Below are positions 15,271-40,250 of a DNA stretch of 64,000 bases, one piece after another; within the stretch, counting starts at the first letter, position 1, and every line of letters begins with the position of its first letter. The stretch spans positions 496,001 to 560,000 of the forward strand of contig NW_019028998.1 in assembly GCF_002105155.1 (NCBI RefSeq). Reading direction: 5' to 3'. The notes beneath the pieces were generated by a model that did not search any database, was not told where the DNA came from, and saw only the letters and a list, made by a program, of their open reading frames with translations. The position numbers were made by a program, and so were the translations under genes. Source of the stretch: Lobosporangium transversale. Taxonomy: Eukaryota; Mortierellomycota; Mortierellomycetes; Mortierellales; Mortierellaceae.

Positions 15271-15454
15271 AATATATGAAGCGTGCGAAAAATTTTTAAA
15301 AGAGAAGCCTTCCAGTTCAAACCACGAAAGACACAAATGTCGCATCAGCAGGTCATCTCTGAATAATATAATTTACTTTATTGACCATATAAAATACACA
15401 TTAGATGTCTATGGAGCTGTTACTATACAAAGTAGGATATAAGAATCTTTTGAT

Positions 15455-16333
15455 TTACACAATGGTTGAACGCCAATTGGGAGCACGCTCAAAGCCATTC
15501 TGTCCAAATTGGTAGTCTACAAACGTGTCATAGATCTCCTTTTGTGAGTTCATTACAAATGGTCCATGTTGAACAATGGGTTCCTTCAAAGGCTCGCCTG
15601 CAATCAACACAAAGTGGGCGTCCTCATCCTTGGTTGTGATCTTGACTGTTTCGGCTCCGTCCTCCGAGAACGTAAGGGTGTGGTGAGCCTCACCCTTGAA
15701 CTCCTTGTCACCTACATAAATGGTTCCCTTGAGTGTGTAGATGAATCCAGTGTAGTTGGCAGGGATGGATTGCTCAACTGCTTTGTTCTTGTCCATCTTG
15801 AAATCGAGATACATTGTTGGTGTGCGAGTGTAGACCTTGCTCTTGACTCCATGTGACTCGCCTGCAATCACCTTCACCACCACTCCTTCCTGTGGATTAG
15901 CACGAGGGATCTGGCCATCGAGCAGCTCCTGGTATTGAGGCTCACACATCTTGTGTTCCTTGGGCAAGTTGATCCAGAGCTGAAGTCCATGAGCACGGGT
16001 CTGGGACTTGACAGGCATCTCTGAATGGACAATACCACGTCCAGCAGTCATCCATTGCAAGTCTCCAGGTCCGATGGTCCCTTTGTGTCCTGCAAAGTCT
16101 TCATGCTGGAACTGACCCTCAAGCATATAAGTGACGGTCTCGAATCCACGGTGAGGGTGGTCAGGGAAGCCACCGTTCTTGTCAACATTGAACTCGTCGA
16201 GCATGAGGAAAGGATCGTGATTACGGAGTTCGGGCCGTCCAATAGATCGACGGACTCGGGCTCCAACACCCTCGGCCTGTTCCTTTGAGAGAACAGACTT
16301 AACAATAGAGCGAGATGTTCTTGCTGCAGTCAT
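15455..16333 (-). CDS. Pirin, copy 1
   Basis: Pirins are double-cupin iron proteins; known members act as nuclear redox-sensing transcription cofactors or as quercetinases. Single exon, 292 aa, the usual pirin length (about 290). The N-terminal cupin has the metal ligands: PDHPHRGFETVTYMLEGQ gives H59 and H61, and GRGIVHSEMP gives H103 and E105, matching the His-His-His-Glu site of human pirin. The C-terminal cupin follows from about residue 170. The coding sequence from 15460 to 16276 is identical to pirin copy 2. Only the first ~19 codons and the last codon (Val here, Ala in copy 2) differ. The 5' flank contains TATAAAG at 16417-16423. Confidence 0.93.
   Translation of the reverse strand: MTAARTSRSIVKSVLSKEQAEGVGARVRRSIGRPELRNHDPFLMLDEFNVDKNGGFPDHPHRGFETVTYMLEGQFQHEDFAGHKGTIGPGDLQWMTAGRGIVHSEMPVKSQTRAHGLQLWINLPKEHKMCEPQYQELLDGQIPRANPQEGVVVKVIAGESHGVKSKVYTRTPTMYLDFKMDKNKAVEQSIPANYTGFIYTLKGTIYVGDKEFKGEAHHTLTFSEDGAETVKITTKDEDAHFVLIAGEPLKEPIVQHGPFVMNSQKEIYDTFVDYQFGQNGFERAPNWRSTIV
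15460..16276 (-). repeat. 817-bp duplicated block, pirin copy 1 side
   Basis: Read by eye as identical, without indels, to 30227-31043 (constant offset 14767). Identity stops abruptly at both ends, inside the coding region. Confidence 0.9.
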
Positions 16334-30060: not shown

Positions 30061-30221
30061 ATAAGAGACGAATAGAAAAATAACAAATACTGAATAATAA
30101 TGATAGTAAATGTATATGTTTTTATTCAAGTTTTAATAGTGTATATTTTACAAATGAAGGAGATTTTGGTACGCACTTCTGTACTGTACAAGCTTTGCCT
30201 TTTTTGTTTACATTTTTCACT

Positions 30222-31106
30222 TTAAGCAATGGTTGAACGCCAATTGGGAGCACGCTCAAAGCCATTCTGTCCAAATTGGTAGTCTACAAACGTGTCATAG
30301 ATCTCCTTTTGTGAGTTCATTACAAATGGTCCATGTTGAACAATGGGTTCCTTCAAAGGCTCGCCTGCAATCAACACAAAGTGGGCGTCCTCATCCTTGG
30401 TTGTGATCTTGACTGTTTCGGCTCCGTCCTCCGAGAACGTAAGGGTGTGGTGAGCCTCACCCTTGAACTCCTTGTCACCTACATAAATGGTTCCCTTGAG
30501 TGTGTAGATGAATCCAGTGTAGTTGGCAGGGATGGATTGCTCAACTGCTTTGTTCTTGTCCATCTTGAAATCGAGATACATTGTTGGTGTGCGAGTGTAG
30601 ACCTTGCTCTTGACTCCATGTGACTCGCCTGCAATCACCTTCACCACCACTCCTTCCTGTGGATTAGCACGAGGGATCTGGCCATCGAGCAGCTCCTGGT
30701 ATTGAGGCTCACACATCTTGTGTTCCTTGGGCAAGTTGATCCAGAGCTGAAGTCCATGAGCACGGGTCTGGGACTTGACAGGCATCTCTGAATGGACAAT
30801 ACCACGTCCAGCAGTCATCCATTGCAAGTCTCCAGGTCCGATGGTCCCTTTGTGTCCTGCAAAGTCTTCATGCTGGAACTGACCCTCAAGCATATAAGTG
30901 ACGGTCTCGAATCCACGGTGAGGGTGGTCAGGGAAGCCACCGTTCTTGTCAACATTGAACTCGTCGAGCATGAGGAAAGGATCGTGATTACGGAGTTCGG
31001 GCCGTCCAATAGATCGACGGACTCGGGCTCCAACACCCTCGGCTTGTTCTCTAGAAAGAACAGCCTTGATAACTGATCGTGAAGCTCTGGCAAGTGAAGA
31101 AGTCAT
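30222..31106 (-). CDS. Pirin, copy 2
   Basis: Single exon, 294 aa. Same cupin metal-ligand set as copy 1 (PDHPHRGFE and GRGIVHSEMP). The sequence from 30227 to 31043 is identical to copy 1, so the mature proteins differ only in about the first 20 residues (MTSSLARASRSVIKAVLS here) and the last residue. The stop lies only 162 bp past the stop of the convergent ABC transporter. The 5' flank is unrelated to that of copy 1 and has its own TATA-like box, so expression could differ even though the proteins are nearly the same. Confidence 0.93.
   Translation of the reverse strand: MTSSLARASRSVIKAVLSREQAEGVGARVRRSIGRPELRNHDPFLMLDEFNVDKNGGFPDHPHRGFETVTYMLEGQFQHEDFAGHKGTIGPGDLQWMTAGRGIVHSEMPVKSQTRAHGLQLWINLPKEHKMCEPQYQELLDGQIPRANPQEGVVVKVIAGESHGVKSKVYTRTPTMYLDFKMDKNKAVEQSIPANYTGFIYTLKGTIYVGDKEFKGEAHHTLTFSEDGAETVKITTKDEDAHFVLIAGEPLKEPIVQHGPFVMNSQKEIYDTFVDYQFGQNGFERAPNWRSTIA
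30227..31043 (-). repeat. 817-bp duplicated block, pirin copy 2 side
   Basis: Partner of 15460-16276; see that entry. Both copies are in the same orientation 14.8 kb apart. Confidence 0.9.
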
Positions 31107-34072: not shown

Positions 34073-34399
34073 ATGCAGACACAGGACACAATAAAAGAAA
34101 GGGTCGATAGCAGCTGCACATAATATGGTTATGTCATGCGAAAGACTATCTGCTGGTAATGGTGTAATTAGAATCGACACGAGGTCGGTGAAGCCAGTTG
34201 ACAAAAAGGAAAGGGGTATGGACGACGTATGGGATGCTCTGGAGTAGCCCACGATGTATCTTCTGCAATCTACGCCTGTACCTGATTGCTGAGTGGGAAA
34301 GGAATTTTTAAGTTCATTATCCCTTCGTCCGTCACAAGGGCAAATTTGCCATTATAAATGGGCTTAAAACCCAGCAATCCATGGGCACTGTCTTGAAAT

Positions 34400-34421
34400 T
34401 TTATTTCGATGTCGAAATAAA
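34400..34421. repeat. Inverted repeat, 10-bp arms, 2-nt loop
   Basis: TTTATTTCGA, then TG, then TCGAAATAAA. Perfect arms. Confidence 0.8.
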
Positions 34422-36185
34422 TGGCCGAAAACTAAATTGTCATGGAGCTATCCTGGCTTCTTTATTTGTGCAAATAAAAAACTCATGAAGACTTTCGCAT
34501 GACCCTAGCATCCCCTTGGGAGTCCATTGTATCGTTTATTTATTGACTGATGTAATATAACAGCGATAATGTTCGCTGCCGTAGTATCGACTTGAAAGGA
34601 GGGCAATCTGAGTGGAACCATTCTTCCGCACCATGGAGCTTGACTAACTTGATCTTTTCTTGTACAGCTCGGCAAGACTTGATTTGTCACATCGTTCGCT
34701 TCCTCGTCTTCTTGCATTCCTTTGATATATCTGGCTTGGTAAACAGCTTATAGAGTTTGTTGGGCCTGTTGAAACCGGAGGGAACCACAGCAACATATCA
34801 TACCCAAGGTGATACAAATATCTCTGTTGGAGTGAGTGGTGAATTGTGTGTGGTTCAGATGTAGTGGACATAAACGGCGAAAGAATGCATCGAAAGGATG
34901 TGAGCGGTTATGAGAGCAAGGAAGAAGGGGCTGCTATGCCTGTTAAAGTCCTTGGCAAGAGAGCATGGGTAGCGGTTGTGATCAATGGTATAGTTTCTAG
35001 ACCCTATCTTCCACGTACAGCAATGCATTGTTGTTGTTTTCAGACTTGGCACCAATCATGCGAGGTATTTCTTTTTCTGAGGGTTCCTTGTGTTAAACGG
35101 CTAGACAGAAAGCTTAGAAGAGATACAGACACAACGGTGAAAAAAATGTATGTGAGCTGTGTTTATTTGTTGTCTGCACATGCCTTCTTTCATCGCGGGC
35201 TTTTTTTTTCCTTTTTTGTTCGTCAATCACTGTGTGCACGAATAAGCAGCTGAAGCATCTCTTAAGTTTCTGTACATGTATAAACACATTTTACATCGCG
35301 ACGTCTTTTTTTGTTCAAAACACAAGCGTTTTCCATTGGTGCCTCCAAACAAACTTTATTTTGGCGGCCACTCCACAATCATCCCATGGTTATAACAATC
35401 CCTAGGAAAGGATCAAACGCGTCGGTATCAATCTCGCTTCTGTATTTCTAGATGCATATGTTTTGGCGATTGATATCAACTATCAAATTCACACATACAC
35501 ACACCAAACGACCGCCAAAAACCACCACTCTCGCTTCTGCTCTCCCTCCATCCACAAGGCGCTGCGCAATATCACCATTAACAAGGCATCGTCCAGTAAG
35601 AAAGGGTGCTTAGATAGCTTTTACTCCAAGCAATAAGCGCATGCAACTACATCACTCCTATCTCCGCCATTGATGCCGGAATCTGAGAGTCAACGAATAT
35701 CTCTGCTTTAACGCAATAGTACTGGGGCTGTTGGAGCAAAGAGCATCATATGAAGCCATTCTCTGATAAAAAAGACTTTTTTTTCTTTAGTTGTTACCTT
35801 TGACAAGGATATAATCACCGAGGCATTTATTACCCCTGTTCAAAATTATAAATCTTCTTTTATTCATTAAATTCCTCACAAAGCACAAAGCAAGGGCCAG
35901 TGCAAACAAAAGAAACTGAAAAAAAAAAAAAAAAAAAAAAAAAAAATTATGTAACAAAGGATCGACATCGACACTGTATGCTGTATCTGGAGATGATTTT
36001 TTCGAATGCTCACTTCCAATCTGCCGTTCATGCGAGAGCTTGTATTTATTTGTCAATCTCTGCTATTGACTTGAACAAAACCCCAATCCAAACAAAGGAA
36101 CTGAATAAAGATTGATGTGGCCTGTGAAGCAAAGGATCGATATCAAAACTATATGAGACAATGATAAAACTCAATCAATCCAGGA

Positions 36186-36194
36186 TATAAAAAG
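36186..36194 (+). promoter_or_regulatory. TATA box of the XPG-Fanzor locus
   Basis: TATAAAAAG, about 208 bp upstream of the ATG at 36394. The leader between them is pyrimidine-rich and carries a T32 tract, which may be part of a leader or a leader intron. Confidence 0.5.
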
Positions 36195-36298
36195 GGATCA
36201 TTGTCTTCCCCCTTCAAAGTCCCATCCCTTTTACCACTGCCACTTGTTCCTGTATCTTTTCCTCAATATAAAAAAGCTCATCCTTTTATACCTTTGTC

Positions 36299-36333
<35 letters not shown>

Positions 36334-36393
36334 CATTTCTTTTCATCGCCACCATTTTTCCTTTTTTCTTTCTCTTTCGCTTAGATATTGGCC

Positions 36394-37923
36394 ATGGGGT
36401 TGAAATCCTTCTTCAAACTGGTTGCGGATCGCGGGGTTTTACCTTCGGAAACTGACGTGGGCACTTTCTTGGCGGCAAATCCTGACCATTCTGTTCATGT
36501 AGATCTCCTCGGTGCGTTCTATTACGACATCCTCCGCGGAGTCGGCCATGCAAAGATGAAAAACGAATCCATCATTGATGTAGGAAGGTCCCTGGCTCTC
36601 GTGATAAAGGATCTTTTCATAACAGACAATCTGATTATACATATTGATGGGGAACCTTGTACTGAGAAAGAAAAAGCAAGGACAGAACGGCAAGCCATAA
36701 GAGAAAAAAATATGGATGCTTTGGAGAACGATATGAGCACCTTCGAGAGAAATTCTCGGAGTGGGGTATGGACTCGTCCTCAAGTCATGAGGCGCATCCA
36801 GAAGGGTCTTCGAGAAGTCCACACCCTGAGCGTCCAGGACAAGGATCAGCTGGCAACAGGCCTTAGCTCTGTCTTCGATGTCTGTCTGTGTGCATATGAA
36901 GCGGACCCATGCATAGGGTGCCATAATGAGGATAATGATAGGATCGTAATATCCCAAGACTCTGATTTTTTTGCGTACGAACGAGTCTACTTCCTAGTGC
37001 GACCCCTTCCGCACCGTAGACGGAAGTTAGGGGTTTACGATGTAGACAACGTTATCCAAGCACTAAGACTGCCATCACACGCGCATCTGGTGTTATTCTG
37101 TGCCATCGCAGGCAATGACTACTCAAGGAACCTCGAGACGTTAGGCCCGGTTAATAATCTTCGATTAATTCGAAAGGTTGCGTGGAACGAGAACTACAAT
37201 AAAATGCTTCGGGACTACCTAAGGGAAGCTAGTAAGGTGTTGGGAAGGAACGCAGCCTCTGAAGAAGGCCGTTTCAGAGTAGCTCTCCGCGTTTTTACTT
37301 CCGGCCATCAAACGTCGGCCCAAGCATTACCATTGAACAATGAGTTCGATAACTTCAAGCAGCGTCTACTCAATGGAAAGGATCTTCGTCATAGAATGGC
37401 TCAGCAAAGGCGAGCCATCTTTTCTGACAAGGCGAGCATATTGAATGGGCGCACAGTTGATATCAGTAACTGCCGTCAGCACGATAGGCCGGGCCTTAAG
37501 CATCCACCACGTCGGAAAAAGGCAAAAAAGAAGCAACAGAAAAAACAAAAGCGGAAGCACAAAGGCAAGAAGCCCCACAGGGCTAAAAAAGAAGGTGCAC
37601 TAATTAGGAACTTGAAGGATGCTACGAGGGTTGATCACAGCTACAGCAGTAAGCACCCTATCAAGGCCTTAACAATTGGGTCTCTTAAGGCCTCCATGGC
37701 AAGGAAAGGCGGACTGGACGCAGATGAAAGGGATAGTATTGCAGGCCAGATCCGAGGGACAGTTGTTGTCCTCAACCGACTACGCCGATATGCATACTGG
37801 GCGATTGCCTTGGACATTGAGAGGATCATGCGGTTACCAGGGGCAGCAAGGTCGAGGAAAAGGCACTGGACGAGGTCTTGGATAGCAATGATTATTCCTT
37901 CCGTCTCGCCACCCTTCTTTTAA
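36394..37923 (+). CDS. XPG/FEN1-like nuclease domain (N-terminal part of XPG-Fanzor locus)
   Basis: Intact frame of 509 codons from the ATG at 36394 (MGLKSFFKLVADRGV). It resembles FEN1/XPG 5'-flap nucleases, and the full acidic set is recognisable: D37 in HVDLLGAFY, D85 in HIDGEPCTEK, E169 and D171 in YEADPCIG, D189 and D191 in VISQDSDFF, and D242 in IAGNDYSRN. In human FEN1 the equivalents are D34, D86, E158, E160, D179, D181 and D233. LETLGPVNNLRLIRK matches the helix-hairpin region. A very basic linker (PPRRKKAKKKQQKKQKRKHK) near residues 370-395 could be a nuclear signal. The true frame probably leaves this ORF at the G-run 37840-37843, so the last ~27 codons are likely out of frame. Downstream lies a Fanzor-type domain. 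Confidence 0.75.
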   Translation: MGLKSFFKLVADRGVLPSETDVGTFLAANPDHSVHVDLLGAFYYDILRGVGHAKMKNESIIDVGRSLALVIKDLFITDNLIIHIDGEPCTEKEKARTERQAIREKNMDALENDMSTFERNSRSGVWTRPQVMRRIQKGLREVHTLSVQDKDQLATGLSSVFDVCLCAYEADPCIGCHNEDNDRIVISQDSDFFAYERVYFLVRPLPHRRRKLGVYDVDNVIQALRLPSHAHLVLFCAIAGNDYSRNLETLGPVNNLRLIRKVAWNENYNKMLRDYLREASKVLGRNAASEEGRFRVALRVFTSGHQTSAQALPLNNEFDNFKQRLLNGKDLRHRMAQQRRAIFSDKASILNGRTVDISNCRQHDRPGLKHPPRRKKAKKKQQKKQKRKHKGKKPHRAKKEGALIRNLKDATRVDHSYSSKHPIKALTIGSLKASMARKGGLDADERDSIAGQIRGTVVVLNRLRRYAYWAIALDIERIMRLPGAARSRKRHWTRSWIAMIIPSVSPPFF

Positions 37924-39738
37924 GTGGTCAAGGTGGCCCCAATTCAGCTTACGCGAGGGCAAAAAAACAAGGAAAGGCGGTAGAAGCGCCCCATTATCTC
38001 CTCGCCTATGAACATTTCAAGGCCACCACCGAACTTTCCCCAATAAAGGAAATAGACATCACATTGGGGGACGTGCAAGGCTTTGATCCCAAAAAGATCT
38101 CATTTCCAGAGCGTCAGAGCTACTAATGGGCCAAGTACAGACATCATTAAGGCAGCACTACAGAACGCAATGGTATAGCTTGTGTAAGATATTTTCATGC
38201 ATATTCTGCAATCAAATGCTCTTTATTCAGACTCTTTTTTTTTTTTTTTTTTTTCTAGTTTGATGTCGAGAAAACAAACGAAGATATGAGCGACATTGAG
38301 TTTTTATTGCGGGAGAACAAAAAAGTGAAAAAAAATACTCAGACTTTCCTACGTCCCCCTGGTCACCCGGGTATGTGTATCTGTCTGAACACGCCCTAGT
38401 TGACATCCTCTGGGCGAACGAAGATACCAAGCAGCTACTAGAGCGTATTCTGCCTCTCGACAATCCTTCCAAGACTGCAATGTTTGAGTGTGTACAGGGA
38501 ACAAAAGGGGTTTTGATTCAGGCTCTCTTTTGTGACATTGGAGGCGATCGCATGGTTCTTGGATATCGAGACAAAGTATCCCTGCAGTCACAGGACAAGG
38601 ATCTAACTCGGTTCAAACTCAAAGGAACGATTTCTACCAACGGTCTAGTTCTGAATCTACTTGCCTATGACACAACCCAGACGAAGAGACAGCAGCAGTC
38701 TGACGTAGATGAAGAAGACCCCAGCCAAGAACTGGAGCTTTCTCAGGGATTTCTCAACACGACGTGTTCAAAGGCAGCCGGTGAAGACCTGGCAGATGAA
38801 GACTATGCTAACATAAACTGGAAGAGGAGCTCCAAACTGCTTGAAAACGTTGAGTTCACATTCAACAAACCAGGGCGGTGCCCATCCGCAAACCCCACAA
38901 CTATCGTCGGATGCGATCCTGGTATTGTTAACGCCCTTACGCTTTCCTCCCTGGATCCTCACAACCCTAACTTGCGGCAAACGGTAAAGGTGAGAAGCAG
39001 GTTCTTGTACCTCCCCGTCCTCCGCTTCAATCACCTGTTGAACAAAAGGAAGCGTGAAAAAGGAATGATTGAGGTTGAGAGCGCCATCCCTGTGTTTGGA
39101 AGGGGTACGTACAATGAGTACTTTCAATGGATGAGCGAGGAGTCCCAGACACAGATAGGATCAAAGAATTTGGATGTGCTTCAAGAGTTCTACGAGTCCA
39201 GATGGCACCAGAAAAAAAATGGGACCTACGAAAGGCTCAATGAGCTACGTTCGACTACGCGGTACAGCGAGTGTTGAAGATGCTCGGGGAAAAAGGAGTG
39301 TTTGTCGTCGGCCTAGGGTCCTTTGAAAGTAGTAAAGGAGTTCCCAGCAAGCACACTGCTATAACGAGACACCTTGTCACACAGGTATGGCTTTTATTAA
39401 AAAAAGTAAGAAAAGCTGGAGCGCCATAGAACCCTTGCTAATAAACGACTGCCATTTGAAACGCTTAGGTCAAAGCACGAGGACACTTCGCTGTAGGGGC
39501 GCACGAATTTTACACCAGCGCCCGTTGTCCCCGACCCCTCTGCGATAGCTTTTTAGAGACGGTGTACCCTCGCTCTAAATATTGCCGGACATGTAAGGTA
39601 TTCTTCGACCGTGACGCAGTAGGGGCGGAAAACATCGCAAGAATCGGTCTTGCTCAAATTGAGAGGCAAGAGAGGCCTGCAAAGTACAAGCCCACGGAAG
39701 AGTCGCCTGCTCCGGCTGCAAAGCGCGCACGACGCTAG
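37840..39738 (+). pseudogene. Fanzor (eukaryotic TnpB/OrfB-like) RuvC nuclease domain, frame-disrupted
   Basis: Fanzors are transposon-linked, RNA-guided DNA nucleases of eukaryotes. Coding continues across four frames. A shift at G4 (37840-37843) is followed by VEEKALDEVLDSNDYSFRLA. A compensating shift at A5 (38091-38095) leads to ATNGPSTDIIKAALQNAM, then an intron at 38173..38258. A shift in A8 (38328-38335) opens the main frame, with RuvC-I TIVGCDPGIVNALTL (Asp codon 38915-38917). A shift in A8 (39212-39219) restores WDLRKAQ, then TGA (39241-39243), then FDYAVQRVLKML. A second intron is 39385..39468. The last exon has AHEFYTSARCPRPLC and YCRTCKVFFDRDAVGAENIA (zinc finger plus RuvC-III), then a basic tail. 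The usual RuvC-II Glu is not obvious at VVGLGSF; E in AHEFYTS may be the relocated Glu. Likely a decayed copy; assembly error is possible. Confidence 0.72.
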
Positions 39739-40250
39739 ACACAAGTATTTGGGTGCCGGCACACCCACAAAAAATTTGTAAGTTCTGTTTATTTTCGTCT
39801 CCTGTATCCTCTCAATCTTTTGCCCCTGAATTTCTGGACTAACTTTAAAAACCGTACAGATCAACAGATAAGACGAATTATGACCTCATTTACAACAACT
39901 TATCTTTTCACCGTGCGCAGGAAGTGTACCTGTGCTATTCCAATGCAAAGGCATGTCTAAGTAGTTTACAAAGCAAACTAATCTTCCTTTTATTGCATGA
40001 CATTGTATTGCATTGCATTTCTTTCCCCTATCTCTTTCCCTTTCTCATTTCATTCCTTTCGTCTCCTCCATTTCCTCACCATACCTTTCCACACTGGAAA
40101 TCCTATTCAAACCCTTGTGGAAGACTCTTTTATTTTTTTTATTGTCCTTCTACTCCCCCTTCACGCATACACTGACACTCTCTCGTTGTTTTCTAGAACT
40201 CCTTTATTTTCATCTTCGATCGTACAGCCGTAAAAAAAGAAGACGAGAGT
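39739..40250. other. Intergenic region between Fanzor 3' end and TPS2
   Basis: 512 bp. A palindromic hairpin-prone sequence lies 12 nt past the Fanzor stop. The rest is pyrimidine-rich TPS2 leader/promoter. Confidence 0.4.
39751..39766. repeat. Palindrome just after the Fanzor stop codon
   Basis: GGGTGCCGGCACACCC with a perfect 10-bp palindromic core GTGCCGGCAC at 39753-39762, followed by an A6 run. It could be a hairpin of the element end or guide-RNA region, or a terminator-like structure. Confidence 0.5.

Follow-up and report, generated by a model that had tools for sequence, protein, structure and literature searches.

Fanzors, a family of RNA-guided nucleases, are carried by eukaryotic transposons. 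DNA transposons of the AcademX type carry an XPG-type nuclease, together with a transposase of another kind and, as far as is known, without a Fanzor. Here we analyze a locus in a stretch of 64,000 nucleotides of the soil fungus Lobosporangium transversale (Mortierellomycota; contig NW_019028998.1, positions 496,001 to 560,000; the window) whose gene almost certainly joins both kinds of nuclease in one protein, an N-terminal XPG-type half followed by a C-terminal Fanzor. Comparison with related sequences shows the fusion, its spread, the ends of its carrier element, a transposase in one long copy and signs of selection on both halves.

Fanzors use a RuvC site to cut double-stranded DNA, and most Fanzor1 proteins are 600-700 amino acids long, with no nuclease in front mentioned in the cited sections (PMC11423790). 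A DPG motif at RuvC-I is a Fanzor1 feature, and Fanzors use a right-end RNA extending beyond the target-site duplication (cited parts of PMC10711439). Fanzor1 genes also occur in Tc/mariner elements, which share with our locus the TA target sites, the inverted ends and a Fanzor with or without transposase; unlike our locus, those elements are presented in the cited part of that work without an XPG domain, and one of them, PGv-1, has a separate GIY-YIG nuclease beside its Fanzor (Bao and Jurka, 2013, PMC3627910). The name 'Fanzor flap endonuclease homologs (Fendons)', used for viral contigs, covers both nuclease kinds, and the architecture is not described in the portion cited (PMC11071296). 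Our scan of viral contigs for relatives gave 15 pattern matches, none confirmed. A literature search, with subscription journals mostly outside its reach, found no paper joining Fanzor with XPG or Fanzor with Mortierella; within that reach we found no earlier description of a natural two-nuclease XPG-Fanzor protein, in agreement with the preliminary description of this locus.

The window gene and its two nuclease halves

The preliminary description, made from the letters of the window, had read a coding signal from 36,394 to 39,738, continuous once indels are allowed and interrupted by only two introns. The gene does lie there and the order of the fused parts holds, but the copy in the window is a pseudogene, with a deletion of ~152 bp and with reading-frame slips that by eye fall near 37.8, 38.1, 38.3 and 39.2 kb, and the element around it is larger, TA-flanked and spans 34,320-39,868. 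The intron count has to be corrected to three in the relatives, intron 1 having been deleted from the window copy at 37,414/37,415. The gene is laid out as follows:

36186..36194, + strand: putative TATA-like box
36394..37414, + strand: exon 1, encoding the XPG/FEN1-type nuclease, with its acidic codons at 36502, 36646, 36898, 36904, 36958, 36964 and 37117
37414..37415, + strand: deletion point (~152 bp, in frame); intron 1 and short exon ends gone, by comparison with relatives
37415..38172, + strand: exon 2, basic linker and N-terminal part of the Fanzor; frame slips present
38173..38258, + strand: intron 2 (GT...AG), read in the sequence
38259..39384, + strand: exon 3, middle of the Fanzor, with its RuvC part; Asp codon of RuvC-I at 38915; frame slips present
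39385..39468, + strand: intron 3 (GT...AG), read in the sequence
39469..39738, + strand: exon 4, carrying the zinc finger and RuvC-III, with the alternative Glu codon at 39505 and the RuvC-III Asp codon at 39613

The protein starts with MGLKSFF at 36,394, inside the open frame 36,385-37,923, and the window copy keeps all seven acidic residues of the XPG/FEN1 set in this frame, as had been claimed, the second Glu being replaced by Asp. The RuvC-I motif GCDPG, the C-x4-C/C-x2-C finger and DRDAVGAENIA are likewise present as first read. HEFYTSARC and DRD place an alternative Glu six residues ahead of the zinc finger and an RD after it, an arrangement shared with SpuFz1, GtFz1 and PpFz1, as is DPG in the fusions resembling families A and B below; a T[DN]G motif may be a further common feature.

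The N-terminal part matched yeast Rad2 in a phmmer search (E 2.7e-5). The profile search proposed earlier gave a divided result: the last exon matched Pfam TNB (Cas12f1-like) above the curated cut-off (E 2.7e-6), whereas XPG_I on the window copy fell below it (E 0.033, 15 bits against 24.9). In a related family of the same genome (C13:672316), XPG_I reached 25.9 bits, above the cut-off. The expected match of the C-terminal part to Fanzor/TnpB was found by profile (TNB) and by predicted fold, which matches PpFz over 482 residues from PpFz residue 103. The predicted N-terminal fold is of FEN1/EXO1 type over residues 2-297 at ~15% identity, with EXO1 and FEN1 matching about equally. A first structure model (P0003, alignment of eight sequences) was too poor, with a predicted local distance difference test score of 54.5, and was discarded. 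The fusions thus resemble FEN1/EXO1/XPG (Rad2) enzymes in predicted fold and acidic residues, and differ from them in their ~15% identity, in an Asp for the second Glu, in being joined to a Fanzor and in being borne by a transposon.

From a residue alignment of 35 proteins we kept 26 fusions with at least 200 XPG and at least 480 Fanzor positions (24 public proteins plus A_L014 and B_L030). Four XPG acidic columns (78, 163, 165 and 232 of P0015), the Asp at the second Glu of the XPG set and the RuvC-I Asp are found in 26/26. The complete set of seven XPG acidic residues is present in 14 fusions, with the first column alone missing in 5 more. At the TDG motif of the WED domain the window copy has TNG, and the fusions have TDG (17) or TNG (9). 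DPG at RuvC-I occurs in 6 fusions, those A/B-like; the other 20 have DLG, DMG, DAG, DGG or a gap, and the rest of the clade therefore deviates from the Fanzor1 DPG.

Copies, relatives and selection

A search of the 42.7 Mb genome with the third exon of the window gene gave at least 149 matches; among the matches listed, 19 (one of them the window gene) extend over about 300 or more of the 325 residues, at 87-100% identity. Copies L009-L028, which belong to family A together with the window copy and L035, are the other 18 near-full matches and two shorter ones. An extra stretch of ~150 bp at window position 37,415 was present in 18/18 A copies spanning that point (20 fetched), and in the eight read there it consists of a GTAAG...TACTAAT...TAG intron and short exon ends. 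Copy L014 is stop-free through exon 1 (1037 nt) and exons 2 and 3, from the XPG start until one late slip in exon 3, and the exon 1 ends and exon 2 starts match in 11/20 A copies. Exon 1 of family B (L029-L032) measures 1022 nt and again ends in phase 2; both remaining introns are in phase 0, at positions that correspond to those of A. The two families share 31-32% identity in XPG (B full length) and mostly 36-43% in the Fanzor pieces; single exons are open in copies of both. Because the exon/intron layout of A and B matches across both halves, we infer that the fusion predates their split. In a third family, C (L037, L038), the domain order is the same, and place C13 of this family passes both the XPG_I and TNB cut-offs, 2.8 kb apart on one strand. 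The expectation that relatives carry both domains in one gene and in the same order is thus borne out by A, B and C copies and by public proteins.

Across the genome, 38 of 69 TNB matches have an XPG match upstream within 5 kb (control counts 1 and 1), a pairing that used all 69 TNB matches and 90 of at least 124 XPG matches, smaller fragments having been removed by hand. The 31 TNB matches without a nearby XPG match include truncated copies; at one of the 31 (L040), no XPG piece was seen by eye within the 3.3 kb read, and Fanzors without XPG are perhaps also present in this genome. Separately, L029 of family B holds at 1013-1563, antisense and upstream of its own gene, a piece of the element A Fanzor exon 3 (84.8% identical to L035); many places resembling it in the third-exon search have equal numbers of stop codons.

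Public protein searches, each of which scored only ~8,000 candidates, extended the family to other fungi. The first returned 8 relatives (7 from Mortierella or Lobosporangium), the second 9, six of them new (e.g. P0009, 1,502 amino acids), and a search with family C 49, of which 48 belong to genera that we take to be Mortierellomycota and one (P0062) to Umbelopsis (Mucoromycota). The P0062 model (791 amino acids) begins just ahead of the linker motif, and this protein may lack the XPG half or be a shortened model. P0003 of Mortierella alpina (1,121 amino acids) is 34% identical over 100% of the query, and P0007 of L. transversale matches family B at 89% over 210 residues and 93% over 134. Among the 22 public proteins scanned, two (P0029 and P0040) scored above both curated cut-offs, that of XPG_I and that of TNB.

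Diversity and the ratio of nonsynonymous to synonymous polymorphism (pN/pS) were calculated from 22 copies (window, L035 and L009-L028), skipping codons with gaps or stops; copy pairs are not independent. The XPG half had a pN/pS of 0.60 (codon bootstrap 0.42-0.92) and the Fanzor half one of 0.365 (0.28-0.48). Exon 1 shifted out of frame by a single base gave 1.02, and codons 341-480, which form the junction stretch, gave 0.995, with little variation in both classes. These values read as signs of selection having acted on both halves. Diversity was lowest in the last 135 bp (0.016), against 0.027-0.036 in exons and 0.031-0.067 in introns, and this low value would fit a transposase site as well as a guide RNA. 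Distances in XPG and Fanzor were correlated among the 26 fusions (r 0.895; 0/2000 permutations), and 12 of 23 tree splits were shared by the two halves, nine of them at support 0.9.

The carrier element

Comparison among copies delimits the element that carries the gene:

34318..34319, no strand: left target-site TA; TATCCCTT is found at the equivalent position in 5/5 other copies with a readable left end, and in L035
34320..34332, + strand: left imperfect inverted end; 34318-34332 and the reverse complement of 39856-39870 agree at 10/15 positions, TA included
34320..39868, + strand: entire element copy of 5.55 kb, derived from the 7.88-kb form L035 by internal deletion
35124..35128, no strand: junction of the missing transposase region (~L035 917-3190), by comparison with L035
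39739..39868, + strand: 3' non-coding end including the right inverted end; expected place of the Fanzor guide RNA and least variable part
39869..39870, no strand: right target-site TA; ...GATA in 19/19 right ends read, with L014 and L019 sharing a duplicated flank

The ends of element A read TA|TCCCTT... and ...AACAGA|TA. The right-end motif was found at 41 places in the genome (at most 2 mismatches; control 0) and the left-end pattern at 113 (at most 1 mismatch), the latter being less specific since its control count was 33. Family B has ends of 16 bp with 14/16 matching, TA included, and a pattern at 152 places (at most 1 mismatch; control 3). A 7-kb element with nearly the same ends, L034, has an open 621-amino-acid transposase, which is itself present in five full copies in the genome. 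In the long A copy, L035, a broken version related to this transposase (39% identity) lies between the left end and the XPG-Fanzor gene; L035 is the one A copy with transposase that was read, and the window copy is without this stretch. The carrier is very probably a Tc1/mariner-like DNA transposon.

L033, which lies between two ends of the element A type, was tried as a source of the element A transposase and set aside; reading it by eye showed a helicase-like piece but no transposase. Elsewhere, the element A left-end pattern forms facing pairs that span ~350-510 bases (C24:586041-586465, C44:342431-342780 and C57:20365-20877) and look like small non-autonomous elements. At L036 (C33:627750-636900), family-B-like ends surround a Crinkler N-terminal open reading frame (PF20147, 3.8e-16) and a weak P-loop one.

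Possible roles of the XPG half

Cuts by RNA-guided RuvC nucleases of this type have staggered ends, and the substrates of FEN1/EXO1 enzymes are 5' ends and flaps. In the reading that we propose, the transposase would excise the element at TA. The re-joined empty site would then be cut by the Fanzor half with its right-end RNA guide, and the XPG half would digest or trim the 5' ends of that break. Recombinational repair from a copy in which the element is still present would thereby retain it. Given the fusion, such a resection role is plausible, though we put it somewhat short of an even chance. The statement as a whole, a decayed Tc1/mariner-like copy whose cargo is an N-terminal FEN1/EXO1/XPG nuclease with a C-terminal Fanzor1 and a role in break resection, could equally be right or wrong, the fusion and the carrier weighing most in this judgment. 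Only tentatively do we suggest a natural cut-and-resect unit kept across Mortierellomycota, with an RNA-guided nuclease and a 5' resection nuclease in one chain; the directed break would be hard for end joining to seal, and copying of the element would therefore be forced.

Several observations weigh against this proposal. No copy among 20 A and 4 B copies is intact from end to end, each having a slip, a stop or a missing piece, and the single transcript and the guide RNA are predictions. For the 3' end, folding did not exceed that of shuffled sequence in the window copy or in L035 (z 0.73 to 1.28) and did so weakly in L029 (z -1.31), and Rfam gave two chance-level miRNA rows only (E 0.6 and 0.95). 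The L034 transposase matched IS630 (2.1e-11) and DDE_3 (0.0013) below both curated cut-offs, the L035 piece had weak HTH matches only in Pfam, and an empty site was not found with the joined flanks of 2 copies (9 prepared). The first Asp of SxDSD is N or G in 6/26 fusions and the second is N in one, A_L014. The alternative-Glu/finger/RD pattern is present in 18/26 only, with Lys at the Glu column in four, and some of the remaining 8 look like shortened gene models. P0033, P0035, P0036 and P0038 (4/26) have DAG at RuvC-I and no match to the alternative-Glu pattern. Because of the four Lys and these DAG fusions, Fanzor cutting may have been lost, and XPG kept, in part of the family. Constraint is weaker in XPG than in Fanzor, and 11/23 XPG splits disagree with the Fanzor tree (5/15 at support 0.9); since distances correlate yet part of the splits conflict, the halves have travelled together mostly, not strictly.

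The fusion itself might be an artefact of gene prediction merging neighbouring genes, as public models P0008 and perhaps P0062 begin inside the gene. We rejected this explanation, which is scarcely credible, on introns, frame and junction motif: the intron between the halves is shared among copies and followed directly by a conserved motif, exon 2 of L014 has no upstream Met, and first introns of 84-100 bp leave little promoter space. Alternatively, the XPG half may act in RNA or target handling, trimming the guide RNA precursor or removing the displaced strand or flap of an R-loop. XPG-family enzymes are known to cut single/double-strand junctions such as an R-loop has, and the two halves mostly stayed together. 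This role is nonetheless unlikely, as SpuFz1 and GtFz1 are reported in the cited sections to cut without such a half (PMC11423790), and the nearly equal EXO1 and FEN1 fold matches do not choose between the roles.

That the XPG half serves the transposase, trimming ends or flaps of cut-and-paste transposition while the Fanzor half works independently, would suit the presence of transposase and fusion in one element, L035. We consider it improbable, since the XPG half is joined to the Fanzor and not to the transposase, the B copy L029 shows no transposase among its open frames, and Tc1/mariner transposases are not known to need such a helper. More improbable still is a structural or DNA-binding relic without catalysis, to which the higher pN/pS of XPG and the loss of one SxDSD Asp in 7/26 fusions would point, because the acidic columns 78, 163, 165 and 232 are kept throughout and the XPG pN/pS is below 1.

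With Fanzor and a break-processing nuclease in one chain, a role of Fanzor in break repair becomes directly testable, and the fusion could yield an editor with a built-in nuclease to process its cuts. Elsewhere, the window holds a direct repeat of 871 bp (15,454-16,324 and 30,221-31,091) that is 98% identical.
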